From: Ereboglobus sp.
Lineage (GTDB): Bacteria; Verrucomicrobiota; Verrucomicrobiia; Opitutales; Opitutaceae
Length of the DNA: 64,000 nt
Direction of reading: 5' to 3'
Assembly: GCA_029974595.1 (NCBI GenBank)
Contig: JARKRC010000063.1
Span: 213,944-277,943, forward strand
The notes beneath the pieces are model-generated. The model saw nothing but the letters and a program-made list of their open reading frames with translations. It ran no database searches and was not told the DNA's origin. The position numbers were made by a program, and so were the translations under genes. Below are positions 28,895-64,000 of the stretch, piece by piece; the stretch's first letter is position 1; the number at the start of each line of letters is the position of its first letter.

Positions 28895-30505
28895 ATGGCC
28901 GGAATCCCATGCCCCTCAATGAACAGCACGCTTCACTGGATTGATTACTCAATTGTAATTATCACGGTCGTCTCCACGATTGGGTTTGGGGCGTGGTTTG
29001 CGCGGCACCAGGATTCTTCGGACAAATTTTTCGCCGGCGGCAAAAGCATTCCTCCGTGGGTTATCGGCATGTCCATTTTCGCCACATTGATAAGCAGCGT
29101 GACCTTCCTCGCGTATCCTGCGGCCTCATATAATGGGAACTGGATACTTCTTGTCCAAGGGCTCATGGTTCCGGTTGTGCTGGCCGGGATGATTTGGGTG
29201 ATTGTTCCGCTGTTCAGGAAAGTTATCCGGCTGAGCACGTATGAATACTTCGAGCGACGCTTCGGGTTCTTTGCGCGCATATACAGCTCAGTGGCGTTCA
29301 GTTTCACCCATTTCACGAAAATGGGCACGGTGATGTATCTCTTGGCACTGGCACTGAATTCTGTTGCAGGGTTCAGCGTGCCCGCGACCATTCTCGTGCT
29401 GGGCACGGCCATCATCCTCCTTACGCTGCTCGGCGGGATGGAGGCGGTCATCTGGATGGATCTTGCCCAAGGCTTGCTGATGATTGGAGGAGGGCTCATC
29501 TGCCTGGGCGTTCTTTTGTTTTCCACGGATGGGGGGCCGGTGGTGGCCATCGGAAGGGCGTTGGAGTGGAAAAAAATCGGATTCGGGCCGTATGACTGGA
29601 ATTTCACTCACCTCACCTTTATCGTGATGGCCATCAACGGCCTGTTCTATGGTGTGCAGAAATACGGCACCGACCAGACGATCGTGCAGCGCTATCTGAC
29701 GGCCAAGGATGACACGGGGGCGAAAAAAGCCGCCTATATCGGAGTATTCCTGAGCGTGCCGATGTGGATGCTCTTCATGTTTGTGGGCACCGCGCTGTAT
29801 GTGTATTACAAGACCAATAGCGGGCTGCCGCTACCCGAGGGCATCAAGGCCGACGGAGTGTTTCCCTATTTCATAAAAACGCAACTCCCGGTCGGTGTAA
29901 TCGGGCTGGTGCTGGCCGCGCTCATATCGGCGGCGGTGTCCAGCCTCGACGCCGACATGAACAGCATCGCGGCGGTCGGCGTGCAAGATTACTATCAGCG
30001 TTTCCGTCCGAATTGCACCGACCGAAAGCGTCTAAACATGGGACGTATTCTGGTAGCGCTTTCAGGCATCGGGTGCATCGTGGTGGCATTACTTTATCAT
30101 GCGTGGGGAGGGGAGGGGGTTCTCGGCGTGGTCTTTGAATTATATGCGATCTTCTCGGCCGGCATCGTGGGCATATTTTTGCTGGGGTTGTTCAGTAGGC
30201 GGGCGAACAAGCAGGGGCTCTACACCGGGCTCGTAGTATGCGTGCTCTTTACCGCATACGCCGTACTCACCACCACCCAAATCGGCGCCGGCGATACGCG
30301 GAGGCGGCTGCTCGATCTCGGGAGGTATAATTTTCCGCATCACAAGATGATGCTCGGTGTTTACAGCCATTTCATCGTGCTGGTGGTAGGCTATCTAGCG
30401 AGCTTCCTATTCGAGCCGAAGGGAAGACCGGTCGAAAGCCTGACCATATACGATTATTTCAAGCAAGCGGTGAACAAGAAGACGTCAGCCGGGCGGCGGG
30501 AGTGA
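28895..30505 (+). CDS. Sodium/solute symporter (SSS family)
   Basis: 536 residues, about thirteen transmembrane helices. LHWIDYSIVIITVVSTIGFG, FFAGGKSIPPWVIGMSIFAT, LISSVTFLAYPAASY, GGMEAVIWMDLAQ, YGTDQTIVQRYLTAKD and ISAAVSSLDADMNSIA are typical of SSS carriers that import sugars, sialic acid or uronates with sodium. Linked to a PL22-like lyase and a LacI regulator, it is the likely uptake route for uronides from this locus (inference). A GGAGAGG box at 28878-28884 lies 10 nt before ATG 28895 and supports this start; ATG 28919 (MNSTLHW) is the alternative. Confidence 0.92.
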   Translation: MAGIPCPSMNSTLHWIDYSIVIITVVSTIGFGAWFARHQDSSDKFFAGGKSIPPWVIGMSIFATLISSVTFLAYPAASYNGNWILLVQGLMVPVVLAGMIWVIVPLFRKVIRLSTYEYFERRFGFFARIYSSVAFSFTHFTKMGTVMYLLALALNSVAGFSVPATILVLGTAIILLTLLGGMEAVIWMDLAQGLLMIGGGLICLGVLLFSTDGGPVVAIGRALEWKKIGFGPYDWNFTHLTFIVMAINGLFYGVQKYGTDQTIVQRYLTAKDDTGAKKAAYIGVFLSVPMWMLFMFVGTALYVYYKTNSGLPLPEGIKADGVFPYFIKTQLPVGVIGLVLAALISAAVSSLDADMNSIAAVGVQDYYQRFRPNCTDRKRLNMGRILVALSGIGCIVVALLYHAWGGEGVLGVVFELYAIFSAGIVGIFLLGLFSRRANKQGLYTGLVVCVLFTAYAVLTTTQIGAGDTRRRLLDLGRYNFPHHKMMLGVYSHFIVLVVGYLASFLFEPKGRPVESLTIYDYFKQAVNKKTSAGRRE

Positions 30506-30561: not shown

Positions 30562-30586
30562 TTCACGGAGCCGTGAAACTGTTTTT
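30562..30586 (+). terminator. Hairpin plus T tract, terminator or LacI operator
   Basis: TTCACGG and CCGTGAA (30562-30577) surround a 2-bp centre, then ACTG and a run of six T. As RNA it folds to a six-pair stem with a GAGC loop, a reasonable terminator for the symporter, 56 bp after its stop. As DNA it is a palindrome 62 bp before the LacI-type gene and could be an autoregulatory operator, though the central dinucleotide is not CG. Confidence 0.45.
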
Positions 30587-30638
30587 TGTCTTTCCCTGTC
30601 TGTCATGGGAACACTTATTTCTTTTTTATTTCATCACA

Positions 30639-31727
30639 ATGAATAAACAATCAACAATTTCCGACGTGGCCAAGAAGGCGGGTGTGGCGCTCGGCACGGT
30701 CTCCCGGGTGCTCAACGACATTCCCGGAGTGAATGACGGTATCCGTGAAAAAGTGCTCTGTGCCGCAAGGGCATTGAACTACACGCGGCTGCGCCGCCGC
30801 AAGGTCGCGCGCATGGGAGGCGGCAGGCGCGGCGACGAGCCGAAAAACGTGGGTCTGGTTTGTTTTGGCATGGAGAACTCGCTGGTGCAGCTTCCGGTGG
30901 TGAGCGCGGCGCTGCAAAGCATCGAGAGCACCGTCGCAGGGTTGGGTGGCTCGCTGCTGCTTTCCATCAACCCGAAGGGGGACCGGGTGCCGGCGTTTCT
31001 GTCGGACGGTCGCGTGGCTGGTTTGATTTTGAAAGGACCGAATCAAGGCGAGCTGCCATCGCCGTCGGACAACCGGTTTTTACAGCAACTCTACCGATTG
31101 CCCTACGTGTGGCTGATGGGGCGATTGCCCGGCGCGCCGGGCGACCACTGCAACTTCGACACAGAGGATGCAGGACGCATCGCGGCGGCGCATCTTTATG
31201 AGAAAGGGCATCGACACGTGGCGTTTCTCAACCCGAAGCCCGGCCAGTCGCAATTCGAGTGTCTAAAACATTCGTTTCTCGAACACGCGCGATGGCTCGG
31301 TTGCGAGGTGGACCTTTTCGAGTCGCCGCCGCCTGGTCGGCGCGTGTGGCCGCTGCCGGCCATCACCTCGCCGGAAAACGTGGGCGAACTCGTGGCGCGC
31401 TGGCTGTCGCGTCCGGTGAAAAAACGTGCGACGGCGTTTTTCGTTCCGGCGGACCGCACATCAATCCAACTTTATGCCGCATTGGAAACGAAGGGCGTTC
31501 GTCCCGGTCGCGATGTGGGCATCATCTCGTGCAACAACGAGCAGTCCATCATCGCCGGCTTGAATCCGCCGCTCACGACCATCGACGTGCGCGCGACGGC
31601 GATTGGCGAGCGCGCTGTGCATCAGTTATTCTGGCGCATCGCGCATCCCGACGATCGGTCGTCGTCGCAGGTCATGATACAGCCCGTGCTGGTCGAGCGT
31701 GATTCGGTGCCGGAGCGAAAGGCTTGA
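30639..31727 (+). CDS. LacI/GalR-family transcriptional regulator
   Basis: A 362-residue DNA-binding regulator. The N-terminal helix-turn-helix TISDVAKKAGVALGTVSRV and hinge helix are canonical. The periplasmic-binding-protein-like sensor domain contains NVGLVCFGME, HLYEKGHRHVAFLNPK, FFVPADRTSIQLYAAL and GIISCNNEQSIIAGLNPPLTTI (split here by blades of the fold, not by a frame change). It likely senses a sugar or uronide and represses the unit it ends or the neighbouring operons. The ATG at 30639 begins directly before the HTH; the longer frame from 30573 lacks homology. Confidence 0.93.
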   Translation: MNKQSTISDVAKKAGVALGTVSRVLNDIPGVNDGIREKVLCAARALNYTRLRRRKVARMGGGRRGDEPKNVGLVCFGMENSLVQLPVVSAALQSIESTVAGLGGSLLLSINPKGDRVPAFLSDGRVAGLILKGPNQGELPSPSDNRFLQQLYRLPYVWLMGRLPGAPGDHCNFDTEDAGRIAAAHLYEKGHRHVAFLNPKPGQSQFECLKHSFLEHARWLGCEVDLFESPPPGRRVWPLPAITSPENVGELVARWLSRPVKKRATAFFVPADRTSIQLYAALETKGVRPGRDVGIISCNNEQSIIAGLNPPLTTIDVRATAIGERAVHQLFWRIAHPDDRSSSQVMIQPVLVERDSVPERKA

Positions 31728-33561: not shown

Positions 33562-34833
33562 TCAGTTCTCCCCCGGGTCGCCTTTGAGCGAACGGACAAC
33601 GCCGTCTTGCATGTTGATGCTGAACACCTCCGTTCCCGTCATGCGGTCAAACAGCACGGCCTTTCCTTCGCCGTGGAGGTCACGCCAGGTCGAGCGGGTG
33701 CGGATGCCGCCATCAGGCCAGTAGGTTGTCCATTCAAAGAGAGCCGGTGTCTTGTATTCACGTTTCCATGACAGAGTGCCGGATGGTCTGTAATGGGTTT
33801 CGGTGCCTTTAAGTTGCCCGAGATGATAGGTCGCGTCGTGCAGCACCTCGCCGTCGGGGCCGAGCCAGCGAAGGGGGCCGTGAAACAGGAAACGCCCGTC
33901 ATCGGCGATTCCGCCGGAGTAATGGACAGTGCCGCCGGGGACTTTTTCGATATATTCGCGGATGCCGGCCACCCGCGCCGCATTATTGCGCATGAGCGCC
34001 TCTTCAGAGGCGTTGTCGATTTCATCGGAGCCGCTGAGAATCCATTCCTCGTTGAATTCATAGTGAAGGCACGGCTCGGTCATGGTGGCGATGAGGTGAA
34101 TCACGCCGTTGGGTGTCTGACGTGCGACGGAGTAGCCGATGGTATCGCCGCCCATGTCGGCAGCGTGTTTTGGGAGCTCGTGGCGCTGCGTGCCCGGGAG
34201 CTTGCGGATTTTCCATGTCCCGCCATCATTGTCGGAGATGGCCACCCATACACCCTTGTCCTTGATGTCGGGAGGCGTGAAGCCCTTGTCGGTTTGGAGA
34301 TCGCCGGCAAAGAAGAGGCGTCCGCTGGCGAGGCGGATGAGCGAGGGACGCTGGTTGCCGCCGAGCATGCAGAAGGGGGTTCGGGAGATTTTCCATGTTT
34401 TGCCGCCGTCGTCGGAGACGGAGCGGGGCATGTGGCCTTCAATGTCAGAGCTTTTTCCGCCAAAGCCGAGGAGGCGTCCATCGCGCATCTCGACAAAAAC
34501 GGTGTGGCGTCCGCCAGTGCGTCCGCCGGTGTCGAACCAAGTGGCTCCATTGTCGGTGCTTTTCCATAGGACGGATTCGGGGCCGATGGCGTCGCTGGCG
34601 ATGAGAATATTGCCGGCGCGGTCGCGAAAGGCGCTGGTGATGGGTTGCGCGGAGTAGCCGCCGACCGGTTCGGGGAAATGCGGAAATTTAACCGGGCTCC
34701 AAGTGGCGCCGTTGTCGTCGGAAGTTATGTATTGGAAAGGATAACCGGCGTTGAATTTGTTCATGCCCCAGACGAACCAGATACGTCCGTGGTCGTTCCA
34801 GAGGAGAGGGGCATGATCATCGATATCGGGCAT
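33562..34833 (-). CDS. BNR propeller + MORN-like domain, 3' half of a frameshifted fusion gene (copy 1)
   Basis: 423 residues that align along their length with the C-terminal two thirds of the intact protein at 44281-46779. A sialidase-like propeller shows Asp boxes SDDNGATW, STDNGATW, SDDGGKTW and SDNDGGTW and the motif GGRTGGRHTVFVEMRDGRL. At the end, MORN_2-like repeats (YHLGQLKGTETHYRPSG, WTTYWPDGGIRTRSTWRD) follow. It has no signal peptide of its own. Translation from the internal ATG at 34833 would give an unexported protein, so this half is probably not functional alone. The break from the upstream half is one extra base in the A5 run at 34841-34845. Confidence 0.75.
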   Translation of the reverse strand: MPDIDDHAPLLWNDHGRIWFVWGMNKFNAGYPFQYITSDDNGATWSPVKFPHFPEPVGGYSAQPITSAFRDRAGNILIASDAIGPESVLWKSTDNGATWFDTGGRTGGRHTVFVEMRDGRLLGFGGKSSDIEGHMPRSVSDDGGKTWKISRTPFCMLGGNQRPSLIRLASGRLFFAGDLQTDKGFTPPDIKDKGVWVAISDNDGGTWKIRKLPGTQRHELPKHAADMGGDTIGYSVARQTPNGVIHLIATMTEPCLHYEFNEEWILSGSDEIDNASEEALMRNNAARVAGIREYIEKVPGGTVHYSGGIADDGRFLFHGPLRWLGPDGEVLHDATYHLGQLKGTETHYRPSGTLSWKREYKTPALFEWTTYWPDGGIRTRSTWRDLHGEGKAVLFDRMTGTEVFSINMQDGVVRSLKGDPGEN

Positions 34834-34834
34834 A

Positions 34835-36115
34835 TCAAGGAAAAAGGTCGGGCATGTCCCATTGGTCTGCGCCGTGGCGCAAGCGGGTGCTCATCATGGC
34901 GACATCGGGCGTGGTCTCGCCAACGGCGGTGAACATAACGACGATGAGGTCTCCGTTGTCGCAGGCGACGAGGCCGGGACAGTGGTTGTGCCTGAGCATG
35001 CCGCGGTGGAAACCTAGAGCGCGGAGGGCGGCGAGCTTGCTGGGCGCGGTGTTTTCCGGCGGGGTGGGGAGGAGAAGGCGTTTGCAGAAATGCGGTTTGT
35101 TGGCGGGTGGACCGTGCTTCGCGAGTTTGCGTGTGGTGGAGTTTGTCGGTAGCACGCCGAGCGCGGTAAAAGGAAGGTGGGGATCGCCGGGTTTGGTGGC
35201 AGGTGGCGGGGCCGCGACGATGCGGAATCCGATCGTGCTGTTGCCTTGGTTGTTCGGGACGTCGCGAATGAAGTTTTTGTAGCCCATCTCGCTTTTGTAA
35301 TTGCCGGATTTGGCCTGCCCGGCGCCGGACGGGGCATTCGCGGAGGCCTTGAATTTTTGCGAGACGACCTGTAATTCTTCCAACGGCACCGGCGGAAAAT
35401 TCGGTGGCAAGCCGGCGCGGTTCGCGGAGCGCGCGTAATAGGGCAGATCGTTTTCAAGCCCGCCGCCGCGGATCACGCGCGCAATGCCAGAGGATGGTCC
35501 GACCGGGTCGGTCTGCGGCTCGAATGGATATTCGCCGTGCCAGTCGAAACACCATTCGCGAACTCCAGTATGCATGTTCATAAAACCCCAAGCATTCGGC
35601 TCACCGATGCCGGGCGGCGCCTCGCCCGGAGAGGAGAACCACGTGGTTGTGCCGGCGCGGCAGACGTATTCCCATTCCGCCTCGGTGGGCAGGCGGTAGG
35701 TCATGCCCTCCTTTTCGCTGAGCCAGCGGCAGAACGCCGTCGCGTCTTCCCAACTAATGCCGGCTGCATATGGAGCGGTTGCCGGATCGCCGCGATATGC
35801 GGCGCGGAATTGCTGGAATTGACCGACTGTCACCTCGGCCTCGGCCATGTAAAACGGCTGGCTGATGGTGACTTCGTGAACGGGATGCTCGTCCCAGTCG
35901 CCACGTTTCAGGTAGATAGGTTGCTTGATGAAGGCAGCGCGTGGCGTCTCGTTGGTTTCGCCCATCATGAATTTTCCTGACGCGACGGGCAGCATTCGCA
36001 TGCCGAGGGAGTTTGTAAAAGGCTGGTCAAGCTCCGATGCGGCGGCGCGGGAGAGAAGGGCTCCGGTTGCGATAAAGGCCGAGACTAAGAGAACAAGCGT
36101 GGGAGAGTAACGCAC
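34835..36115 (-). CDS. SUMF1-fold domain protein, 5' half of a frameshifted fusion gene (copy 1)
   Basis: 426 residues from a GTG start with signal peptide MRYSPTLVLLVSAFIATGAL. The main part (about residues 30-300) is a formylglycine-generating-enzyme-type fold: NSLGMRMLPVASGKFMMGE, HPVHEVTISQPFYMAEAEVT, RLPTEAEWEYVCRAGT, and RVIRGGGLENDLPYYARSAN. The cysteine pair needed for FGE catalysis is not in that last motif, so it is unlikely to mature sulfatases. The C-terminal GLVACDNGDLIVVMFTAVGE is already the first blade of the BNR propeller and ends at DMPDLFP. Deleting one A/T base at 34841-34845 restores a full-length protein like the one at 44281-46779. Confidence 0.78.
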   Translation of the reverse strand: MRYSPTLVLLVSAFIATGALLSRAAASELDQPFTNSLGMRMLPVASGKFMMGETNETPRAAFIKQPIYLKRGDWDEHPVHEVTISQPFYMAEAEVTVGQFQQFRAAYRGDPATAPYAAGISWEDATAFCRWLSEKEGMTYRLPTEAEWEYVCRAGTTTWFSSPGEAPPGIGEPNAWGFMNMHTGVREWCFDWHGEYPFEPQTDPVGPSSGIARVIRGGGLENDLPYYARSANRAGLPPNFPPVPLEELQVVSQKFKASANAPSGAGQAKSGNYKSEMGYKNFIRDVPNNQGNSTIGFRIVAAPPPATKPGDPHLPFTALGVLPTNSTTRKLAKHGPPANKPHFCKRLLLPTPPENTAPSKLAALRALGFHRGMLRHNHCPGLVACDNGDLIVVMFTAVGETTPDVAMMSTRLRHGADQWDMPDLFP

Positions 36116-36408: not shown

Positions 36409-37701
36409 ATGAAAACACACTCACTCGTTTTGCGACACCCCAACCTTCTCCTTGCGTTTTTTTGCGCAGTCGCGCTCGTGCCTGTCCCATCCCGTTCCGC
36501 CTCTCTGGAGCCGGCCGAGAGCACTGCGATAATCATCAAGGGTTTGAAGGAATGGCCCTCGAAAAATCCGTCCGACAAACTGCCAGCGGTCAGCGGCATG
36601 GAGACATCCACGGTACTGCGGGCGGACAAAGAGCATCCCGAACTTGGCGACGGACGTGGTTGGACGTTTCATCACCATCCCGACATGGCTGTGTGGCGCG
36701 GCCGTCTTTATGTGGCATGGAGCTCATGCGTAAAGGATGAGGACACATGGCCCAATCGCGAGCTTTACAGCACGTCCGCCGACGGCCACGCGTGGTCGAA
36801 GCCGCTGGAGATGTTTCCCGAGGGTGTGTCCACGCCATTCCGCATGTATTTTTATCGTTCGCCCGATGATGTGATGCTCATGTTCGCCGGCGTGCGGCTG
36901 AGTCGTGACAGGCTTTCGGAAAAGAAAAAAGACGGGATGGTGGTGCGCCGCGTCATGCCCGATCATACACTCGGCCCGGTGTATATGTTGCGCATGCCGA
37001 GGGCGTGGGACGGGGACGAAAAACCAGATGATCTTTCGGGTGCATCTCTGGAGATGTATTCAGCTTCCAATGACAGGGATTTTATCGTGGCCTGTGAAAA
37101 ACTCCTCGCTGATTCCGTTGTGCTCAACCAGCAGGACTACGGTCGCATGCTCGACAGGAAAAATCGGATGCCATGGGTAAATGCCACCGAATGGGCGACT
37201 GCCGCCGGTTATTCGGAATCCTTGGCACCTTCCTTTGGTAAAGCCATGTCGTTCTATCACCGCAAGGACGGCGCAATTGTCGGCATCGGTAAGAGTCGCT
37301 GGGTGACTGTCTCGGACAATGGAGGCAAAACTTGGTCGCGGCCCGTCCGCTCGACGCAGCTTGTTACCGGCACAGCCAAAGTATGGGGGCAGCGCACTAC
37401 CGACGGACGCTACGCGCTCGTATATAATCCGCACGCCAAAAACCGATTCCCTCTCGTCGTCGTGTCGGGCGAGGACGGTGTTACCTTCCGAGACATGTGC
37501 ATGGTCAACCCCGGTGACCAATCGCAACGCTACGAGGGAAAGAATAAAAATACCGGTGCGCAATACGTTCGCGGCATTGCCGAATGGGCGACAGACGGCA
37601 CCTTCGCGGGAGAGAAAAACAACCTCTGGATCGTGTATAGTATCAATAAGGAGGATATTGTCGTGAGCCGCATTCCGCTCCCGGTGCATCCCGCGAAATA
37701 A
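36409..37701 (+). CDS. Secreted BNR-repeat (sialidase-like) protein
   Basis: 430 residues with signal peptide MKTHSLVLRHPNLLLAFFCA. A six-bladed propeller is indicated by RGWTFHHHPDMAVWRGRLYV, Asp boxes STSADGHAWSKP and VSDNGGKTWSR, and RTTDGRYALVYNPHAK. The arginine triad expected of true sialidases is not obvious, so it may cleave or bind another sugar. In Bacteroides, BNR proteins often precede an iron-ADH, DapA-like, PdxA-like and DUF1537 set, and the same order occurs here, with all four partners broken. Confidence 0.8.
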   Translation: MKTHSLVLRHPNLLLAFFCAVALVPVPSRSASLEPAESTAIIIKGLKEWPSKNPSDKLPAVSGMETSTVLRADKEHPELGDGRGWTFHHHPDMAVWRGRLYVAWSSCVKDEDTWPNRELYSTSADGHAWSKPLEMFPEGVSTPFRMYFYRSPDDVMLMFAGVRLSRDRLSEKKKDGMVVRRVMPDHTLGPVYMLRMPRAWDGDEKPDDLSGASLEMYSASNDRDFIVACEKLLADSVVLNQQDYGRMLDRKNRMPWVNATEWATAAGYSESLAPSFGKAMSFYHRKDGAIVGIGKSRWVTVSDNGGKTWSRPVRSTQLVTGTAKVWGQRTTDGRYALVYNPHAKNRFPLVVVSGEDGVTFRDMCMVNPGDQSQRYEGKNKNTGAQYVRGIAEWATDGTFAGEKNNLWIVYSINKEDIVVSRIPLPVHPAK

Positions 37702-37754
37702 ACCGACCGGCGGTAGCCATTCTCCATGGCGGTGCGCAATCCGGCCAGACTCCT

Positions 37755-38057
37755 TTGCATGGACATCGTTATTCTCCTCGCCTCCTCTTCGGCTGCGGCA
37801 GCGCGCAATCCATCTCCGGCGAACTTGCTGCCGCCGGCCTCCACAGTGTTCGCCACTGCGGCCGTCGGCTTGGAGCGGCTCGTGGCGCTCTCTCGTGCCT
37901 GCGGCATTCCTCAGCGTCTTCGCGACGTCGGCGTTCCCGAGTCAGACCTGCCCCGTTTCGCTCAAGAGGCGATGAAGGTTACGCGCCTTTTGAAAAACAA
38001 CCCCCGTGAGCTCACCGCCACCGACGCGCTTGAGATCTACCGTGCCGCGTATTGGAA
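37755..38057 (+). pseudogene. Iron-containing alcohol dehydrogenase remnant
   Basis: Only the two ends of an iron-ADH are left. The N-terminal strand and helix (PRLLFGCGSAQSISGELAAA) is read in one frame from 37755 to about 37848. It joins directly in another frame to the C-terminal part GLERLVALSRACGIPQRL, GVPESDLPRFAQEAMKV and ATDALEIYRAAY. Roughly 250-300 residues of a normal ~380-residue enzyme, including the nucleotide and metal sites, have been deleted. The remnant is too short for activity. It lies between the BNR gene and the DapA-like pseudogene. Confidence 0.72.
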
Positions 38058-38087
38058 TTTAACTATAAAACAAGGTTCTACCACCGC

Positions 38088-39043
38088 ATGCCCGCGGCAT
38101 CCATGGCTATTTTTGAAAAAGGCAGCATCCGCGCCGCCCTGCGCGGCCATGTCATCGTGCCGATGATAAGCCCGCTTACGCTCTCCGGCGAACTCGACCT
38201 GATGGCGACATTTCGCCTCGCCGATCACATCATCGACGGTGGCTGCCAGGGGCTCCTGGTCGGAGGCACCAACAGTGAAGGCCCCTCGCTCGCACTCGCG
38301 CGCCGCATTGCCCAAATCGAGGCCGTCGTGGAACACACCGCAGGACATGGCATGGTTTAGCCGGCATCGGGGTCACAGCATTTGGCGATGCGGTGGAGCT
38401 TGGCCGCGCAAGCCTGCGCGCCGGTGCGGTTGCGGTGGCCGCTCACCCGCCGCCGTGCTTCATCATAAATCCGGCCGAAATTGAGGCGTATTATCTAAAA
38501 CTCATCGATGCGATCGGCGGTCCGTTTTTCATTTACAACATGCCGCTGACCACAGGCATCTCGATTCCGCTCGATGTGATTGGGCGGCTCAGCACGCATC
38601 CGCTCGTGATGGGAATCAAGGACTCCGAAGGTGATGCGGAGCGACAGACACTACTTGCCGACATGCATAAGGACCGTACGGATTTCACCGTGTTCTGCGG
38701 CGCAATGGCGCACTCCGCGCGTTCGCTTGCAGCCGGGGCCGACGGCAATGTGCCCAGTGCCGGCAACCTCGATCCCGCCGTGTGTCGCCGACTTGTGGAC
38801 CTTTCTCTCTCGTCCGCTGTCGCGCCATCCGCGCTTGCCGTCGCGCAGGATCGTGTGGCCGCCGTCAGCAAAGTCTATCAGGAAGGACGCAAGCTTCCCG
38901 CACAAATTTCCGCGCTCAAAGGCTGCGTCAGTCTGCTCGGGCTCTGCGCGCCCGACATGCTTCCGCCGCTCCTCACCACGACTGACACGGAACGCTTCAA
39001 GCTTCGCCAGCGCCTTGTCAGGCTCCATCTTCTGGTTTCATGA
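38088..39043 (+). pseudogene. DapA/NAL-family aldolase, frameshifted
   Basis: Class I aldolases of this superfamily use a Schiff-base lysine to split or join pyruvate-derived substrates. The first part (MAIFEKGSIRAAL, VIVPMISPL, GLLVGGTNSEGPSL) ends at a TAG at 38358-38360. The rest (AGIGVTAFGDAVELGRASL, FFIYNMPLTTGISIPLDV, and the lysine in LVMGIKDSEGD) is in a different frame. One missing base in the GTTTAG at 38355-38360 explains the break. Start ATG at 38088 or 38103. The stop overlaps the ATG of the PdxA-like gene as ATGA. Confidence 0.8.
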
Positions 39044-40064
39044 CACGCTCCGCCAAACCCATTCTCGCGGTCACTATGGGCGACCCAGCCGGTACTGGTC
39101 CGGAACTTATCATCAAGGCGCTAGCCCGCCCCGAATTGCGCGCTGTCTGCCGTCCCGTTATGGTGGGCGATGCGCGCATGCTTGTCGAGGCTGCCGCCAT
39201 TGTCTGCCTTAACCCCGAGATCAGGAAAATCTCCTCTCCGTCCGCCGTGTCCGACGATCCTGGCGTGATACCGGTCATCGACCTCGACAATGTCCCGCAT
39301 CGCGGCTTTGAACGTCGCAAAGCCAGTCCCGCCGGCGGGCATGCGACTTATGAATACATCTGTCGCGCCGTCGAGTTTGCCAAGTCCGGCAACATGCAGG
39401 CTATCGTGACCTCGGCCATCAACAAAGCCGCGCTCCATGCCGCCGGGCACCACTACGATGGACACACTGAGCTGCTTGCCGCGCTTTGCGGAACCCCGAA
39501 AATCACCATGATGCTTGCCGCCGGAAAACTTCGCGTGTGCCACGTGAGCACGCATGTCTCGCTCGCAGAGGCCATCAAGCGTGTTCGGGCGGATCGGATT
39601 GTCTCCGTAATACAACTCGCGCGTGACGGCATGCGCGAGTTGGGCGTCGAGGCCCCGCGCATCGCCGTCGCCGGCCTTAACCCACACGCGGGCGAAGGAG
39701 GGCTGTTCGGAGATGAGGAAATCAGGCAGCCATCGAGCAAGCGCGCTCGCTCGGCATCCATGTGAGTGGGCCGTATGCGGGTGACACGGTGTTTTTCCGC
39801 ACATTGCAAGGCCAGTTTGATTGCGCCATCGCGATGTATCACGACCAAGACCACGTTGCCGCGAAGATGCTCGGTATCTGGCAGGGTGTGAATATCACGC
39901 TCGGTCTGCCCATCATCCGCACGTCGGTCGAGGACGGCACCGATTTTGAAAACGCGGGCAAGGGCATCGGCGATCCACGCAGCCTGCTTTGTGCGCTCAA
40001 CCTCGCGGCGACAATGGCCGCCAATCGCCTTGCTGTCACCGGCTCCGCCATTCAGACCGTGTAA
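39040..40064 (+). pseudogene. PdxA-family 4-phosphate dehydrogenase, frameshifted
   Basis: The PdxA family contains 4-hydroxythreonine-4-P dehydrogenase and PdxA2-type enzymes that act on four-carbon acid sugar phosphates. Conserved parts are ILAVTMGDPAGTGPELI, VTSAINKAALHAAG, GHTELLA and NPHAGEGGLFGDEEI. After EEIR the frame shifts at about 39726. The natural continuation AIEQARSLGIHVSGPYAGDT is in another frame and continues as MYHDQDHVAAKM to a stop at 40064. Comparison with the family suggests loss of roughly ten bases rather than a single one. The metal-binding histidines are on both sides of the break, so the gene is likely inactive. Confidence 0.8.
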
Positions 40065-40131
40065 ACAGATGCCACGCGCACGATTTCTCCTTCGCAAAAA
40101 TTCCGCTGCCGCCATCTCCTGTCCTGCATCC

Positions 40132-41335
40132 ATGTCTCACACGATTCTTGCCGATGACCTTAGCGGTGCGATGGAAACCGCCGCGACCTTCATGCGCCAC
40201 GGTTGGAGTCCCTCCATTCCGCTTGGCGAATCCGCTGCCGCCCCGGCGGGCGCGCCGGTGGTGATTTCCACCGAGACGCGCAACCCTCCCTCCCGCCACT
40301 GCGCTCTCGGTGCTGGCGGCGCGGACCGACGAAATTCGACGGACCGGCGCGAATCTTGTTTTCAAAAAAATCGATTCCACCATGCGCGGTCCTGTCGGCG
40401 CGGAACTTGCCGCCGTGCGTGAGGCGTGGCCGGATCGCCCGGTGTTCATCACGCCCGCCAATCCGCTCCTCGGGCGCGTGGTAGTAGATGGAGTTCTGCG
40501 TGTTAACGGGATACGTGTCACGCAGACTCCGTTTCGTCACGACCCAGGCTCGCCTGTCATGCACGACGAGTTGATACGCCTGCTCACCGCGAGCGGCGGT
40601 CCGGGCGATACTGTCACGCTACCGCTCTCCGTGATTCGCGGGCGGATGCGCGTGCGATGGCTGCGTGAGAAAATAGCCGCGGCGCGCATGGTGTTTGCGT
40701 GCGACACGGAGACAATTGACGACCTCCGCGCAATTGTCTCCGCCGCGCTCGAGGCGCACGACGTCCCCCTGTTCATCGGCTCCAGCGCGCTCGCCGCAGT
40801 TGTCGCGGGGCTTGTGCGTCCTGCCGCGAACGCATCAATGGTTGGAAACAAAAACGCCTCGCCGCCCATGTGCGGCGGCACGCTTTTCGTGTGCGGCAGC
40901 AAACACCCGGCGAGCCACCATCAGATGCGCACGCTCGGTCTGCCCTTGCGCATGTTGACGCCAAAATCGTTCGGACTTGCAAATGAGCTGGCCGCCGACC
41001 TCGTGGCCCGAGGCCGGGCCGCCGTGCTATGCGCGGATTATCCAGGGCTGCCGGAGCATGCCCTGGCCGCGATGGGGGACATCGTGGAGACCGTCGTACG
41101 CATTGCTTTGGTCCGCACGATTTTCGTTACTGGAGGCGAGACCACCCGCGCGCTTTGTCGCCGCCTCGGCGGCACGGCGCTGGAGCTTCACGCGGAAATC
41201 GAGCCTGGCGTGATTGCGGCTCGGATGCCCTGTCCTGAAGGTACACGCCTCGTCATCACGAAACCCGGCGGCTACGGCGACGCCCAATGCCTCGTGCGCG
41301 TATGTGAATGGATTGACGAGGCATCGGCTTCATGA
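40132..41335 (+). pseudogene. DUF1537 four-carbon acid sugar kinase, frameshifted
   Basis: The DUF1537 family phosphorylates D-threonate, L-threonate, D-erythronate or 3-oxo acids. HTILADDLSGAMETAATF and VVISTETRN form the N-terminal start. Then the frame changes: one extra C in the CCC at 40284-40286 turns what should read NLPPATALSVLAARTDEI into NPPSRHC. The remainder (LVFKKIDSTMRGPVGAEL, VFITPANPLLGRVVVDG, FVCGSKHPASHHQM, FVTGGETTRAL, VITKPGGYGD) is intact to the stop at 41335. It is the last of four successive broken genes. Confidence 0.82.
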
Positions 41336-41420: not shown

Positions 41421-42839
41421 TTACTGCCGGCTGATGACCTCTGCACTTGGTGTGGAGGTGCCTCCGTGGATGAACTCGAGGACGGGTTTTTCCACGTTGT
41501 CGAAATAGAGCAGGCTGCGGGTGGGCGCATTTTCGACGGAAGGCCAGACGACGTTCAAGTTCGCGATGCGCAGGCCCTTAACATTCTTGAAAATGAAGGC
41601 CGAAGGGATGACACCGAAGGATTTATTTGTCACCGGCGATGGGCCGCGTGCTTCATTGAATGTTTCGAAGCCGCCAATGCGGTAGGAAATGTTGGAGAAA
41701 GAGATATCCTCCAGTACGAGGCCGTCGATGGCGTGCACCATCACGCGGCCATTGGTCTCGATAGTAATGTCGCTGAAGGCTATGTTGCGCACGATGCCAT
41801 CGGGCGAGGATTTGCCGCGTTTGCTCAGCTCGATGATAATGGGGATCTCGTAGCCCTTGCCCCATTTGCGCTTGGTGAGAAGGGTGATATTAGCGAAGCG
41901 CACGTTCTCCATCGTGCCGCCGTCTTTGCAGATGAGGCCCAGGCCGGTGCGGGCGGAATGAATCACACAGTTCGAGAAAAGCACACGGCGATAGTCGCCG
42001 TAGCTTTCGGTGCCGAGCTTGAGCGCGGTGGCGGAGCTTTGCAGCACGCAGTTGGTCACGACGACATTCTCCACCGGCGGGGTGATGTCACCCATTTTGG
42101 TTGTCTTTAACACAATACAGTCGTCGCCTGCCTCAATATGGCAGTCGGAGATGATGACGTTGCGCGAGGAATCGACGTCGATGCCGTCACTGTTGATGGC
42201 GCGCAGGTTATTTATGATTGAGATGCCCCGTATATAAACACCGTCGCAGTTTTTTGGATGCAGTGTCCAGCCGGGCGCGTTGCGGATGGCAACATCAGTG
42301 ATGCGGATGTTGCGGCAGTTTATCAATTCAATCAAGGGGGTGGGGCGGGCGTGGGCGATAGTGATGTCATTATTGAAGAACGAGTCGCCGTTGCCATCAA
42401 TGAAACCACGCCCCTCGATGCCGATGTTTTCCGCACCGCAAGCGTAGATGAAATGACGCATCGGATAGCCTTTTTGGTTTTTCCCGTCGATATCGATGAT
42501 GCCTTCCAAGTAGAGGCTTTCCTGCGGGGGGTAATCCGCGATGTCCCTGCTGCCGAGCAGTGTCGAGCCTGGCGAAAGGTGGAGCGTCACGTTGCTTTTC
42601 AGATGGATGGTGCCGGAGAGAAATTTCCCTGTTGGAAAATAAACCGTGCCGCCGCCCGCGGCGTGGCAGGCATCGATGGTTTTCTGGATGGCGGCGGTGT
42701 CCAGGGTTTTCCCGTCGCCGACGGCACCGTGTTGCGTGACATTATGATTCCGCGCGTCGGCGGAGATCGGCAAGGTGAGAATCGCGCAGAGCGAAAGGCA
42801 GAACAGGGTGGCGGATATTTTTTTCAGGTATGAATGCAT
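41421..42839 (-). CDS. GH28-family glycoside hydrolase
   Basis: 472 residues, secreted (signal MHSYLKKISATLFCLSLCAI). The beta-helix has the entry motif VTQHGAVGDGKTLDTAAI and AGGGTVYFPTGKFLSG. The catalytic aspartates are in NSDGIDVDSSRNV and AGDDCIVLKT. The usual GHG histidine loop is replaced by LGTESYGDYRRVLF, and the R-x-K motif is not obvious. This variation is common among rhamnogalacturonan- and xylogalacturonan-type GH28 enzymes, so strict polygalacturonase activity should not be assumed. It is the last gene of the long minus-strand run that begins beyond the right edge. Confidence 0.9.
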   Translation of the reverse strand: MHSYLKKISATLFCLSLCAILTLPISADARNHNVTQHGAVGDGKTLDTAAIQKTIDACHAAGGGTVYFPTGKFLSGTIHLKSNVTLHLSPGSTLLGSRDIADYPPQESLYLEGIIDIDGKNQKGYPMRHFIYACGAENIGIEGRGFIDGNGDSFFNNDITIAHARPTPLIELINCRNIRITDVAIRNAPGWTLHPKNCDGVYIRGISIINNLRAINSDGIDVDSSRNVIISDCHIEAGDDCIVLKTTKMGDITPPVENVVVTNCVLQSSATALKLGTESYGDYRRVLFSNCVIHSARTGLGLICKDGGTMENVRFANITLLTKRKWGKGYEIPIIIELSKRGKSSPDGIVRNIAFSDITIETNGRVMVHAIDGLVLEDISFSNISYRIGGFETFNEARGPSPVTNKSFGVIPSAFIFKNVKGLRIANLNVVWPSVENAPTRSLLYFDNVEKPVLEFIHGGTSTPSAEVISRQ

Positions 42840-42849
42840 GATGGTGATG

Positions 42850-44265
42850 TTACTTTTTCGTGTTGCTTGAAAGAACGGCGGCTGCCTTGGGGCTGACGGT
42901 CATTTCCTGCGCGGCAATATCGTGTCGCCACTGGGCGAGCCTCGCGCGCAATTTCAAGACCAGGGCGGGGCTTTCGGCGGCGATGTCGCGTTCTTGTCCC
43001 TCGTCGGTGGACAAATCGAAAAGGCTCGTCGCCGGACCGATGCCGAGCAGCGCGCCCTCGTGCCATTCGATGAGCATGTGGTTTCCGTCGCGGATGGCGG
43101 AGGCGGGATGATATTCTCCGAGGCTGTGGTAGTGTGGAAAATGCCAGAATAGCGGGCGCGTCGCGAGCGGTATGCCGGAGCGGAGTTGCGCGAGCAGGCT
43201 CATGCCGTCGGCCGGCACATCGGAGGTGTCGCACCCGGCGGCCTCGGTGAGCGTGAAGAACAGATCCTGCGTGATGACGGGGGTGTCGAAACGCGCGCCG
43301 GCAGGGATGACGCCGGCCCAGCTCACGCAGGCCGGAACGCGCAGGCCGCCCTGCCACACGGTGGCCTTGCCGCCGCGAAACGGTGTCTGGCTTTGCAGGG
43401 ACATGACATTGCCATTGTCGGATGCAAAGACGATGAGGGTGCGTCGCGTCAAATCGAGTTTATCGAGCTCGTCGAGGATTCGGCCGATGTGCGCGTCCAT
43501 GCGCTCAATCATCGCGGCCATGACCGGATGATTTTCAGGGCGGACCGCACCGGATTTGTTGGCGTATTTAGCGACAAGCGCGGGTTGCTCGGTCAGAGGC
43601 GTGTGAACGACGTTGTGTGCGATGTAGCAGAAAAACGGACGGTCCTTGTTTTCCCTCACGAATTCCAGTGCATGGTCGGTGATGGCGGCGACATTGTGCG
43701 CATCGGGTTTGTCGGCATTTTTCGCACTGGGCTTTCGGGTATGAAACACGACATCGAATCCCTGCGACTCGGGATCCATTGGCCGGCCGGGTTTGTAATC
43801 ATAATCCGGAGCGAGGTGCCACTTGCCAAACAATCCGGTGATGTAGCCCCGGTCGCGCAACCGCTCGGCGATGGTGACTTCGGTGAGCGGGAGGCCTTGT
43901 TGCATCTCGGGCGTGACGAGCGGGCGACCTTTGCCGGAACTGCCGGGGATGAAGTTGGTGAGATGCAGGCGCGCAGGCCATTTGCCGGTCATGAGGGCCG
44001 CTCGGGTTGGAGAGCAGATGGGCGCGGCGGCATACGCCTGCGTATAAACCGCGCCGCTGCGCGCGAGGCGGTCGAGGTTGGGCGTCTCATACCACGTGGA
44101 GCCGTTGAAGCCGGTCTGGTTCCAGCCCATGTCATCAGCGAGGATGATGACAATGTTGGGTGGTGGCTCCGCGGGTTGCGCGGTGGCGAATGGAAGCGTC
44201 AGTGCGACAGATGACGTAGCGACGAGCGAGGCACGACGGAACGGGAATATGGATGTTATTTTCAT
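42850..44265 (-). CDS. Sulfatase, Cys-type
   Basis: 471 residues, secreted (MKITSIFPFRRASLVATSSV). The active-site motif is CSPTR within APICSPTRAALMTG. NIVIILADDMGWNQTGFNG, GLFGKWHLAPDYDYKPG, FFCYIAHNVVHTPL and IVFASDNGNV identify it as an arylsulfatase A-like enzyme (SulfAtlas S1-type, exact subfamily not determinable here). Only 10 bp separate it from the downstream GH28 and 15 bp from the upstream SUMF1/BNR gene, so these are co-transcribed. Confidence 0.93.
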   Translation of the reverse strand: MKITSIFPFRRASLVATSSVALTLPFATAQPAEPPPNIVIILADDMGWNQTGFNGSTWYETPNLDRLARSGAVYTQAYAAAPICSPTRAALMTGKWPARLHLTNFIPGSSGKGRPLVTPEMQQGLPLTEVTIAERLRDRGYITGLFGKWHLAPDYDYKPGRPMDPESQGFDVVFHTRKPSAKNADKPDAHNVAAITDHALEFVRENKDRPFFCYIAHNVVHTPLTEQPALVAKYANKSGAVRPENHPVMAAMIERMDAHIGRILDELDKLDLTRRTLIVFASDNGNVMSLQSQTPFRGGKATVWQGGLRVPACVSWAGVIPAGARFDTPVITQDLFFTLTEAAGCDTSDVPADGMSLLAQLRSGIPLATRPLFWHFPHYHSLGEYHPASAIRDGNHMLIEWHEGALLGIGPATSLFDLSTDEGQERDIAAESPALVLKLRARLAQWRHDIAAQEMTVSPKAAAVLSSNTKK

Positions 44266-44280: not shown

Positions 44281-46779
44281 TTAGCTTTCTCCGGGACTTC
44301 CTTTCTTCGACTTCACTCGACCGCGCTCGAATTCCACGCGGTAGATTTCTTGTTTCGTGACGCGATCGTACAAAACCGCCGGACCGTCAGCCGCGAGATC
44401 GCGCCAAGTCGAGCGAGTGCGGATGGAGCCATCGGGCCAGTAGTTCGTCCACTCCATGGATCCATCCGGTTTGTATTCACGAGTCCATGACAGAATGCCG
44501 CCGGGCAGACCCAGGGATTGACGCCCAGAGAGGGCTCCAAGCGCGTAGTTAGCCTCGAATTCGGGTGTGCCGTCGGCGTAGAAGGATTGGAATTTCCCAT
44601 GCAGGAGGAAGCGTCCGTCATCGGCGATGCCGCCTGAGTAGTGCAGGCGCACGCGGCCGACCTCGTCGGTCTCGGTGTATTCCTTCACCACCGGAACGTA
44701 CGACGCTGTCGAACGCAGCAACTCCGCATCGGAAACGGGCGCGGTGACGTCGTATTGCAGGACCCATGCTTCGTTGAACTCAAAGTGCAGACACGGTTGG
44801 TTCATCGAAGTGATAAGGTGTATCATGCCGTTCGGCGCTTGGCGCGCAACGGAGTAGCCAAGTGTGCCGCCTCCCATCGCCGTCGCACGTTCTGGCCTCT
44901 CATGCAATTGCACACCAGGGAGAACGCGGGTCGCCCATGTTTCGCCCTCGTCGTCGGAGAGCGCGACGAGCGCGCCTCGCTTCTCGATGGAGGCAGGCGC
45001 CTTGCCCTTGTCGCTCTGCAGGTCGCAGGCGAAGAGGAGTCGGCCGCTGGCGAGGCGGATGAGCGAAGGGCGCTGGTTGCTGCCGAGCGCGGGGAAGGGT
45101 GTTTTGGAGACGGTCCATGTTTTTCCCCCATCGGAAGAAATCGATCGCGGCATATAGCCCTCGATGTTGGAGCTCTTGCCACCCATGCCGAGGATTCGTC
45201 CGTCGCGCAGTTCGACAAACGCGGTGTGCCGCCCGCCGGTGCGGCCGCCGGGGTCGGCCCAGGTGACACCGTTGTCGGCGCTGCGCCAGAGCAACGACAC
45301 AGATCCACGGCCATCGCAGGCGACATTGATGACGCCGTGGCGATCGTGGAAAGTGTTGGTGACAGGTTGCGCAGAATGCGGGCCGACCGGATCGGGAAGG
45401 CCCGGAAAGTTGATCGTGCCCCACGTTGCGCCGTGGTCGTCAGACACCATCCATTGGAAGGGAAACCCAACAGCGTAGTTGTTGAAGCCCCAGAAAAACC
45501 AGAGACGCCCCGTGTCGTTCCAAAGCATCGGCGCGTGGTCGTTTACGTCGGAGATATCGAGAAACAGGTCCGGGGGATCCCATTGATCAGCGCCGAAGCG
45601 CAGACGCAGCCCCATGAGCGCGACTTCCGGATCGTGCTCGGCGGAGGCGCTGAAAAACACGGCGAGCAAATCACCGTTGTCGCACGCGATAAGTGCAGGG
45701 CTATGCTGGTGGCGGAGAAATGCCCGCGGCCAGCCGAGCGCGCGGAAAGTGACAAGTTCGGAAGGGCGGACGTTTTCCGGCGGGGTGGGGAGCAGGAGGC
45801 GTTTTCTAAAATACGGGCGTGCTGGGTCTGGCGCGATGGTGGCATTTGCGCTGGATTGCACGACGGCGCTCGAGGTGAGCGGCGTAACTGCAGGCGTTGG
45901 CGCAGATTCCGGCGGGGGCGCAAGCACGATGCGAAAGCCGGTGCGGCCCTGACCGTGGCGGTTGGGTGTTTTGCGGAATGCATGACGCTCGGGATCATCC
46001 CCGGAGTTTGCGGGGCGTTTTCCGGCATTGGCTGCGCGGCTGACGATTTGCAATTCCTCAAGCGGGCAGGGCGGAAAATCCGGGGGCAAGCCGGCACGGT
46101 TGGCAGAGCGTGCGTAGAATGTGGTCTCGCGGTCGAGCCCGCCGCCACGAATCACGCGGGCGACTCCGGAGGCCGGGCCGACTGGATCGGTCTGCGCGTC
46201 GAACGAATATTCGCCGTGCCAGTCGAGGCACCATTCGCCCACCCCAGTATGCATGTTCTTCACGCCCCAAGCGTTCGCGGTTTCCGACGAAGGTGGTTCG
46301 CTGCCTGACGAAAACAACGTGGTTGTACCGGCGCGACAGGCATATTCCCACTCAGCCTCGGTGGGGAGGCGGTAGGGTTTGCCTTCGCGCTTCGTGAGCC
46401 AGTGGCAGAAGGCGGCGGCATCGTGCCAGCTCACGCCGGAGGCATAAGGCTGTGTGTCGGGATTGCCTATATAGGTGCTGCGGAATTGTTTGAATTGCTC
46501 CGTTGTGACCTCGACCTCGCTAATATAAAAGGGATGAGAAATTGTCACCCGATGCGCAGGATGCTCGTCCCAATCGCCGCGCTTAAGATGCGTGCCCTGC
46601 GCGAATGCCTCAGCCGGTGTATCGTTTGTTTCGCCCATGATAAACGAGCCCGCCGGGATGGGCAGCATTTTCATGCCGAGCGAGTTTATGAACGTGTTGT
46701 CGGCGGGTTCGCATGAACACAACAGAGGCAACCCGCCCGCGAGAAGCGCGACTTTAATATATGGAGCGAAGCAATGCAT
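44281..46779 (-). CDS. Lipoprotein with SUMF1-fold, BNR propeller and MORN-like domains (copy 2, intact)
   Basis: An 832-residue protein. The lipoprotein signal MHCFAPYIKVALLAGGLPLL ends at the lipobox LCSC. Residues about 25-285 form a formylglycine-generating-enzyme-type fold (SLGMKMLPIPAGSFIMGET, RLPTEAEWEYACRAGTTT, GGGLDRETTFYARSAN). Residues about 330-690 form a sialidase-like propeller with Asp boxes SDDHGATW, SADNGVTW, SSDGGKTW and SDDEGETW. The last ~130 residues carry MORN_2-like repeats (SFYADGTPEFEANYALG, WTNYWPDGSIRTRSTWRD). The FGE catalytic cysteines are missing. The combination is one I do not know from characterised proteins. It belongs to the long minus-strand run, between a GH105 and a sulfatase. 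Confidence 0.82.
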   Translation of the reverse strand: MHCFAPYIKVALLAGGLPLLCSCEPADNTFINSLGMKMLPIPAGSFIMGETNDTPAEAFAQGTHLKRGDWDEHPAHRVTISHPFYISEVEVTTEQFKQFRSTYIGNPDTQPYASGVSWHDAAAFCHWLTKREGKPYRLPTEAEWEYACRAGTTTLFSSGSEPPSSETANAWGVKNMHTGVGEWCLDWHGEYSFDAQTDPVGPASGVARVIRGGGLDRETTFYARSANRAGLPPDFPPCPLEELQIVSRAANAGKRPANSGDDPERHAFRKTPNRHGQGRTGFRIVLAPPPESAPTPAVTPLTSSAVVQSSANATIAPDPARPYFRKRLLLPTPPENVRPSELVTFRALGWPRAFLRHQHSPALIACDNGDLLAVFFSASAEHDPEVALMGLRLRFGADQWDPPDLFLDISDVNDHAPMLWNDTGRLWFFWGFNNYAVGFPFQWMVSDDHGATWGTINFPGLPDPVGPHSAQPVTNTFHDRHGVINVACDGRGSVSLLWRSADNGVTWADPGGRTGGRHTAFVELRDGRILGMGGKSSNIEGYMPRSISSDGGKTWTVSKTPFPALGSNQRPSLIRLASGRLLFACDLQSDKGKAPASIEKRGALVALSDDEGETWATRVLPGVQLHERPERATAMGGGTLGYSVARQAPNGMIHLITSMNQPCLHFEFNEAWVLQYDVTAPVSDAELLRSTASYVPVVKEYTETDEVGRVRLHYSGGIADDGRFLLHGKFQSFYADGTPEFEANYALGALSGRQSLGLPGGILSWTREYKPDGSMEWTNYWPDGSIRTRSTWRDLAADGPAVLYDRVTKQEIYRVEFERGRVKSKKGSPGES

Positions 46780-46866
46780 GGGGCGGAAATAACAAGATAC
46801 AGCGCCAAGCAAGGACTCCGCTTGCAAAGCCCCTGCTTGACGGAAATAATGAGCTGGTTTTTTGGA

Positions 46867-48273
46867 TTATTTCTTTTTCGGCACGTAATGGTAGGTGCGA
46901 GTTTTGTATTGGATGTCGATGGCTGGGTTTTCCATCGCCCTTATCATTTCCGACCCGGCAAGGAGAAACGCGCCGTAGGCGTGGGTGGCGTAAGGACTGC
47001 GAGGGCGATTGTAATAATATACATTGTCGCTGGCGAAGGTCGTGCCCACGCAGGTGTCCTCAAGCTGGCCGCGGCGGTTTACCTTCTGGCTCAGGCCAAT
47101 CCAGCCGGCCTGCGCGACCGAGCCGTAGGTCACGGGGCTGATCCAGCCTTTGTTTATCGCGCGGTAAATGCTGTATACAAACATCGCGGTGCCGGAGGTT
47201 TCCTCGAAGGTCTCGGCCTTGTCGAGCATCTGGTGCCACATGCCAGTGCCGGACTGAAGCGTGGCGATCGCATGGATGTGTTTGCGCAGGTAGTCGAGAA
47301 TGGCATCGCGTTGCGGATGGGTTTCGGGCAGCACGTCGAGCAGCTCGATGGTCGCCATCATGACCCATCCGTTGGCTCGACTCCAGTAGAAGCAGGGATT
47401 ATCGGGCTGATTGGAATTCCAGCCGTGGGCATAGAGGCCGGTCTTCTCGTTGAAGAGGCGCCGGGACATCTGCACGACTTGTTTCGCCGCGTCGTCATAC
47501 CAGGACTTGTCACCAGTCATGCGGCCCATTTGCGCGAGGGCGGGAATGCTCATGTAGAAATCGTCGCTCCAGAGCGACTCGGGCTGCGGGCGCTTGCGCG
47601 CAAGAGTGCCGTCCTTGAGACGCATTTGCTCCTTGCTGATGTAGTGGCTCCAGCGGTCGATTACCTCCTTCAAGTCGGAATCGACACCAGCCATGCGGGC
47701 CTTGATAACCGCGGCGCACATCGCCCCGCACGAGTCGAGCGAATCGGGTTCGATGATATTGCGGAATCCGTTTTGTTTGATGAGTACGGACTTCCCAAAT
47801 TTGTCGTGCTGTGCCTTGAAGTAGGGCAGCCAGTCGTGGATGAAGGCCATGTGGCGCTCGGTGAAGTCGCGGAATTTTTTGTCCCCGGTGACCTCGGCGC
47901 ACTGGAGCATGCCGGAATGGGTGACGCCCATGGTGTAATCAAACACGCTGTGCGAGCCAGCCTCGCCACGCTCCATGACGGCGGTTTTGATGATGGTGTT
48001 CTTATCAAGAATCTGGTTGCCGGTCCTGCTATCGATTACGCGGGTGACGCAGGCCTGATCGAGATAATCACGGACGCGAACGAGCAGCTCGATGATTTCG
48101 ACCTTTTTCGGCATTTGATAAGGAATGGGATAGCCACCTTCGGAAATATCGTAGAGCGCAGGATTATCGCGATTGCGAAACGGACCGTCGGCGAGCAGCG
48201 CGGTCACGGATGAGGCTGCGAGCGCGAGCATAGCAGCGAATTTTATACGGTTTGATGGGGTGGTATTTTTCAT
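46867..48273 (-). CDS. GH105-family unsaturated uronyl hydrolase
   Basis: 468 residues with signal (IKFAAMLALAASSVTALLA). The (alpha/alpha)6 barrel has SLWSDDFYMSIPALAQMG (candidate catalytic Asp pair), YWSRANGWVMMATIELLDVL, TGMWHQMLDKAETFEETSG and MFVYSIYRAINKGWIS. It is distinct from the GH105 at 16.9-18.7 kb, being a single-domain protein without the N-terminal jelly-roll part. Expected reaction: removal of delta-4,5-unsaturated galacturonate from oligosaccharides made by the neighbouring lyases. It lies 40 bp after the PL22-like pair and 87 bp before the SUMF1/BNR gene. Confidence 0.9.
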   Translation of the reverse strand: MKNTTPSNRIKFAAMLALAASSVTALLADGPFRNRDNPALYDISEGGYPIPYQMPKKVEIIELLVRVRDYLDQACVTRVIDSRTGNQILDKNTIIKTAVMERGEAGSHSVFDYTMGVTHSGMLQCAEVTGDKKFRDFTERHMAFIHDWLPYFKAQHDKFGKSVLIKQNGFRNIIEPDSLDSCGAMCAAVIKARMAGVDSDLKEVIDRWSHYISKEQMRLKDGTLARKRPQPESLWSDDFYMSIPALAQMGRMTGDKSWYDDAAKQVVQMSRRLFNEKTGLYAHGWNSNQPDNPCFYWSRANGWVMMATIELLDVLPETHPQRDAILDYLRKHIHAIATLQSGTGMWHQMLDKAETFEETSGTAMFVYSIYRAINKGWISPVTYGSVAQAGWIGLSQKVNRRGQLEDTCVGTTFASDNVYYYNRPRSPYATHAYGAFLLAGSEMIRAMENPAIDIQYKTRTYHYVPKKK

Positions 48274-55052: not shown

Positions 55053-55239
55053 GAGGCTTATACTTATATTATCTGAAGAAGGGGGCCATCGGGCAGGGGC
55101 TTGGGCGGCGGCATATTCGAAAAGGGAGGTGTTTTTGGAGGACCTTGTCGATGTTGGGAAACTGTCGAGAAATACTATTCCCTGCGGGTTGCGGAAGTTT
55201 TGGGAAGATATCCCTGCCGGGAAATGATAATGGTGCGGA

Positions 55240-56409: not shown

Positions 56410-56480
56410 GTGAAAGCGAGGAGGTGATTGTTTTTCGTGAGGCCGTGCAGAGAGGCATCGGAGAGAGGCTCCTATCGTGA

Positions 56481-57662: not shown

Positions 57663-57709
57663 GGCGGGGGAGTATGATTGTGGGAAGAAAAGGATGCGGG
57701 CGGGTCTGC

Positions 57710-59449: not shown

Positions 59450-59467
59450 GCGACCGAAAAAGATACT

Positions 59468-60631: not shown

Positions 60632-60643
60632 GATGCGTGTTTA

Positions 60644-63998: not shown

Positions 63999-64000
63999 GC

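Follow-up and report, generated by a model that had tools for sequence, protein, structure and literature searches.

Few plant glycans match RG-II in complexity. Dha (3-deoxy-D-lyxo-hept-2-ulosaric acid) is one of its signature sugars, Kdo and Dha being carried by its side chains C and D (PMC12282258). A Dha-freeing enzyme is known (GH143): BT_1020 is a two-site enzyme, with Dha cleavage in the propeller and beta-L-arabinofuranosidase activity at the other site (PMC6811678; PMC7263609). Yet a literature search produced no description of the later bacterial metabolism of Dha and nothing specific on its catabolism in bacteria. The closest described route for a related acid sugar is that of D-threonate, which is reportedly taken to DHAP by a DUF1537 kinase and PdxA2. 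The locus considered here belongs to a stretch of 64,000 nucleotides from Ereboglobus sp. (the window), and its central gene encodes a protein with an FGE-like domain, a BNR propeller and a MORN_2-type tail (FGE-BNR-MORN). The gene neighbourhoods of this protein and its relatives predict each step of Dha utilization with ordinary, assayable enzymes plus a second, architecturally unusual hydrolase. This brings a question on how pectin is digested, in the environment as well as in animal guts, within reach of direct tests.

Domain architecture, distribution and conserved residues

The original prediction, made from the sequence, described the protein as a lipoprotein with the three domains in the above order and four Asp boxes in its propeller, a combination not known from any characterised protein. 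The architecture was borne out by Pfam (BNR_2 at 2.8e-18), by the tails of the family and by AlphaFold modeling of the whole protein with 35 sequences as input (pLDDT 88.4, pTM 0.90). The MORN_2 match in the target alone was at 4e-4, with the tail reaching 27.6 bits against a cut-off of 29.6, while all 35 family tails matched at E<=0.1 (best 9e-17) and the tail was predicted to be all-beta with pLDDT mostly >90. The last residues of the four Asp boxes (SxDxGxTW type) are W453, W507, W555 and W615. In the structure comparison, the modeled propeller matched solved sialidases with Z ~32 over ~310 residues (rmsd 2.7-3.3); the match list was filled by sialidases and scarcely covered matches outside the propeller. 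The FGE part matched PvdO (5hha) and, by profile, also FGE structures; the profile search hit GldK/PorK and a Treponema variable protein as well. An alternative TTG start would extend the ORF to 44281..46827 (-).

One scan of bacterial genomes for relatives of the target returned 40 loci, and all three domains were present in ~35 relatives from Opitutaceae, other Verrucomicrobia, Acidobacteria, Bacteroidetes, Planctomycetes, KSB1, Hydrogenedentota and Lachnospiraceae/Clostridia, besides a shorter class lacking the MORN tail. With relatives in so many phyla, a unique architecture is ruled out: the protein represents a widespread family and not a local oddity. The literature search for the architecture found no characterised protein with this order, so that this part of the prediction stood, although the architecture itself is common. 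Inserts of ~170 aa, PA14-like by eye, were present inside the FGE domain of seven relatives (L013, L024, L026, L028, L029, L030, L037), and a Phycisphaerae contig (L041:1234-8340) carried three FGE-BNR genes in tandem.

As judged by eye, most of the relatives, mainly the Gram-negative ones, carried a plain signal peptide, and those from Clostridia had none; most were without a lipobox. The N-terminus of the target (...LLCSC) is not a canonical lipobox either, which leaves its lipoprotein status only plausible, with no conservation of this trait in the family. The GH143-like propellers followed the same pattern, being mostly equipped with a signal peptide in Gram-negatives and devoid of it in Lachnospiraceae, and both types of propeller are thus predicted to be cytosolic in Clostridia.

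The active-site residues of the target were placed by sequence alignment, partly extended by hand, and not by geometry. Compared to the Micromonospora sialidase, H359 aligned with Arg68 of the triad and K535 with Arg276, while the hand-extended part placed E381 at the acid/base Asp92, approximately H518 at Glu260 and Y642 at the nucleophile Tyr370; the Arg342 position was without a conserved residue in the family. Since the Arg triad for the substrate carboxylate is not kept in the family, the target is not a classical sialidase, though its conserved residues form a complete and charged set. Invariant in 35 of 35 relatives were H359, E381, Q471, D489, R517, H518, K535, R570, D586, Y642, Q647, H654, N669, E670 and W672. 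In the FGE domain, none of the 35 rows had two Cys at the active-site segment; because this catalytic pair is absent, the protein is not a formylglycine-generating enzyme, and sulfatase activation by this domain is ruled out. Similarity to GH143 in hhalign was weak and partial (85% probability over 65 columns only), and Pfam gave no match to PF24067 in the target. The H-x-P...22...E pattern was dropped as a proof of kinship with GH143, since the same spacing occurs in other BNR proteins.

The locus and its history

Table 1. Annotated features in the window around the FGE-BNR-MORN gene
Feature	Coordinates	Strand	Evidence or remark
SSF sodium:solute symporter, type recurrent in these operons	28895..30505	+	
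LacI-family regulator	30573..31727	+	
Paralogue of FGE-BNR-MORN protein, broken into two frames	33562..36115	-	intact copy in G046
GH143-like propeller (BT_1020 N-terminal)	36409..37701	+	5mqr 2e-48; Pfam Beta-prop_BT_1020 2e-33
Fe-dependent alcohol dehydrogenase (Fe-ADH) remnant, C-terminal part only	37717..38163	+	
DHDPS-family aldolase, two frames, broken	38151..39040	+	
PdxA, PdxA2-type, two frames, broken	39040..40061	+	Pfam PdxA 1e-54
DUF1537 (SBD_N/NBD_C) acid-sugar kinase, two frames, broken	40132..41335	+	Pfam 2.5e-28
GH28, polygalacturonase/rhamnogalacturonidase-like	41421..42839	-	
Sulfatase	42850..44265	-	
FGE-BNR-MORN protein (target), 832 aa, exported, possible lipoprotein	44281..46779	-	ATG start, ORF intact
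MORN_2-type beta-hairpin tail of target, C-terminal, residues 693-832	44284..44703	-	MORN_2 in 35/35 relatives
Six-bladed sialidase-fold BNR propeller of target, residues 318-692, four Asp boxes	44704..45828	-	structure match, alignments
FGE/SUMF1/PvdO-like domain of target, residues 25-300, w/o catalytic Cys pair	45880..46707	-	Pfam FGE-sulfatase 6e-27
GH88/GH105 unsaturated uronyl hydrolase	46867..48273	-	

The original prediction saw a likely role for the protein, encoded between a sulfatase and a GH105, in the handling of sulfated or uronic polysaccharides. Its observations were confirmed and its interpretation was partly supported: the uronic polysaccharides were in the right area, while a sulfatase-linked role found no support in a family without the Cys pair. 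The informative neighbours, namely the acid-sugar pathway genes and the GH143-like propeller at 36.4-41.3 kb, were absent from it. The remnants of Fe-ADH, DHDPS, PdxA and DUF1537 genes (37717-41335) lie between the two paralogues of the window in truncated or frameshifted form, and all four are readable in the corresponding copy of G046, a genome of another genus. The acid-sugar genes of the window are probably decaying, or carry assembly errors, beside an intact target gene.

The diverged and frameshifted paralogue, also recognized originally, is indeed present, with 57-59% identity to the target in both frames. Its break consists of a single surplus T within a run of T, and programmed +1 frameshifting at CCT-TGA is ruled out, since the intact G046 copy is merely one T shorter. 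The target itself shares 94% of its amino acids with the G046 ortholog at a dN/dS of 0.26, the propeller having the lowest value of the three domains (0.17).

The part of the window from 24470 to 64000 had 91-94% DNA identity to G046, while the same-genus genomes in the sample were without an FGE-BNR gene and a housekeeping protein at 8.9-10.7 kb was 76-85% identical to its own genus and 69% to G046. Taken together, this suggests that the pectin locus has probably been exchanged horizontally, and recently. Misbinning of the contig is not favoured, as this housekeeping gene, ~14 kb ahead of the block syntenic with G046, has its closest counterpart in its own genus. The synteny with G046 is broken at 51965-55238 by a segment with a GH2 (LacZ-type) gene, and a tandem run of related genes at 55240-64000 includes at least two pectate lyases (Pec_lyase, PL10-type), one with DUF6250.

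Genes for Fe-ADH, DHDPS, DUF1537 and PdxA2 were found beside the FGE-BNR-MORN gene in Clostridia (L012, L016, L017, L019, L020, L027), in L011 (Verrucomicrobia) and in the family of the window (L078, L079, L082, G046). In Clostridia, the gene follows the DUF1537 kinase and PdxA, usually together with Fe-ADH and the DHDPS-family aldolase; across the phyla, the neighbouring aldolase is of either DHDPS or HpaI type. The order SSF-FeADH-DHDPS-DUF1537-PdxA-[BT_1020 propeller] recurred, with variations, in ~12 related genomes, mostly without an FGE-BNR gene, while in L011 (FeADH-DHDPS-DUF1537-PdxA-[FGE-BNR-MORN]-SSF) the FGE-BNR-MORN gene takes the place of that propeller. Five Acidobacteria had the arrangement SSF-HpaI aldolase-GH142-like barrel-FGE-BNR, the barrel showing homology to the half of BT_1020 outside the propeller (5mqr 611-1101, 1e-95). 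No GH143 propeller was detected in L011 or in the acidobacterial loci within the stretch examined; four loci (L016, L018, G046 and the window) contained both propeller types. Several relatives from Planctomycetes, KSB1 and marine Bacteroidetes had no pathway genes within 6 kb, and DUF1537 was absent genome-wide in 8 of the 18 genomes, incomplete MAGs, that had a relative but no DUF1537 in the local stretch.

Among 150 genomes of the bacterial family of the window, DUF1537 was present in 14/14 genomes with an FGE-BNR gene vs 48/136 without (p=1.6e-6), and the BT_1020 propeller in 11/14 vs 22/136 (p=3e-6), while GH28, a control for general pectin degradation, showed no such association (11/14 vs 96/136, p=0.39). 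As genomes of one genus are not independent, hand estimates at the genus level are p ~0.003 for DUF1537 and ~0.01 for the propeller. DUF1537 and the BT_1020 propeller co-occurred in 29/33 cases (p=6e-10).

The conserved neighbours of the FGE-BNR-MORN genes are thus acid-sugar genes and not sulfatases. A sulfatase is present in several such loci (L078, window), which raises the possibility that the substrate is a sulfated Dha glycan or one from algae. Two further kinds of protein were observed near the acid-sugar genes. In Lachnospiraceae, they are accompanied by the gene for a protein of ~1030 aa, the second half of which contains an extracellular solute-binding domain (L040:1244-4342, L021:416-3511), and its cluster also occurs in L016, L017, L019, L023, L027 and L038. 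Proteins of ~820 aa with LamG domains are encoded between the PdxA and DUF1537 genes (L078:5195-7645, L082:13019-17915), the one in L078 having no PDB match.

A predicted route for Dha and competing readings

The FGE-BNR-MORN protein is proposed as a second type of Dha hydrolase because of its position upstream, where GH143 acts. That it is a putative sialidase-fold (BNR_2 type) exo-glycosidase with the role of GH143, freeing Dha, is a reading to which we give an even chance. The analysis shows the domain structure, the fold, the invariant residues, the conserved neighbours and the absence of both the FGE Cys pair and the sialidase Arg triad, with substrate, pathway direction and catalysis all predicted. 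Somewhat below even stands the larger proposition, according to which it would found a new GH family releasing Dha and the adjoining genes would encode an undescribed and complete pathway that turns Dha, by way of threuronate and D-threonate, into pyruvate and DHAP; Verrucomicrobia and Clostridia would have this pathway and Acidobacteria a part of it.

Dha would be freed from RG-II side chain D or from another Dha-bearing glycan by a retaining mechanism with Y642 as the Tyr nucleophile and E381 as the acid/base, in a pocket made strongly basic by H359, R517, H518, K535 and R570, which would suit a dicarboxylate, while the FGE-like and MORN parts may act as non-catalytic support or binding modules. 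In Gram-negatives, free Dha would be imported by the SSF symporter; in Clostridia, the oligosaccharide would be taken up by an ABC importer and the propellers would act in the cytosol. The DHDPS/HpaI-type aldolase may then cut the C7 Dha between C3 and C4 into pyruvate and a four-carbon aldehydo-acid, threuronate, which Fe-ADH would convert to D-threonate, the reduced aldol product expected on stereochemical grounds from the D-lyxo configuration of Dha. Phosphorylation of D-threonate by the DUF1537 kinase and oxidative decarboxylation of the product by PdxA2 would finally yield DHAP. The neighbouring PdxA is nearest to D-threonate-4-phosphate dehydrogenase (6e85, 1.5e-68, vs 2e-47 for PdxA 1ps7), and a DUF1537 kinase with PdxA2 reportedly carries D-threonate to DHAP; the set of four genes therefore suits Dha, while for Kdo it would be unnecessary.

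The coexistence with GH143-like propellers in four loci leaves room for another linkage or step, and the protein could be a hydrolase or lyase for a different linkage of the same substrate (Ara-Dha, the Kdo side chain C or else a 3-deoxy-ulosonate of related kind), with GH143 active alongside and not replaced. The basic residues (His, Lys, Arg, Tyr) would suit a lyase as well, but the pathway genes point to D-threonate, for which Kdo, giving arabinose, has no need, and the loci of Acidobacteria and L011 are without a GH143 propeller in the stretch examined; we regard this reading as unlikely. Hardly different in weight is the view of a non-catalytic carbohydrate-binding or scaffold protein capturing an acid sugar or a pectin fragment: FGE-like folds are also employed for binding or as structural parts, as in GldK/PorK and the Treponema variable protein, MORN tails are structural and the sialidase Arg triad is lost. 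What speaks against it is the invariance of ~15 mostly polar propeller residues, including the Tyr nucleophile position, in all 35 relatives across phyla, and the predicted cytosolic location in Clostridia, where surface capture would be pointless.

Propeller mutarotases exist, and the protein might condition free Dha, as a mutarotase, as a lactonase or otherwise, in a role like that of NanM for sialic acid; this would agree with its place ahead of both uptake and the aldolase in either compartment. With sialidases as the fold match and no other propeller hydrolase in the acidobacterial stretch examined, such a function seems quite improbable. A formylglycine-generating enzyme with extra domains appended might be expected from the FGE-sulfatase match and the adjoining sulfatase, but the missing Cys pair and the acid-sugar nature of the conserved neighbours make it scarcely credible.

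Comparison with described systems

The hydrolase proposed here shares with GH143 (BT_1020 N-terminal propeller, PDB 5MQR) a sialidase-related beta-propeller, the location beside SSF, Fe-ADH, DHDPS, DUF1537 and PdxA in related genomes and, at comparable places, the H-x-P...E spacing seen also in other BNR proteins, a conserved Lys and a Tyr. In contrast to GH143, reported as five-bladed, the target matches six-bladed sialidases and carries FGE and MORN domains; the Tyr-Glu pair which GH143 is reported to keep (PMC6811678) seems altered in the target, with approximately a His at the position of the Glu partner. The six-bladed fold, the Asp boxes and, in the hand-extended alignment, the Tyr nucleophile position are common to the target and the GH33 sialidases (Micromonospora 1EUR), from which the target differs, at ~22% identity, in the replacement of R68 by His, D92 by Glu, E260 by approximately His and R276 by Lys, and in the unconserved R342. 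The N-terminal fold with its RLPTEAEWEYA-type motif resembles the FGE / PvdO / SUMF2 family but is devoid of the Cys pair and fused to the propeller and the MORN tail. Finally, the neighbouring kinase and dehydrogenase are of the kind found in the D-threonate pathway, although here they come with genes for an aldolase, Fe-ADH and sialidase-like propellers, a combination suggesting that the D-threonate originates from Dha.
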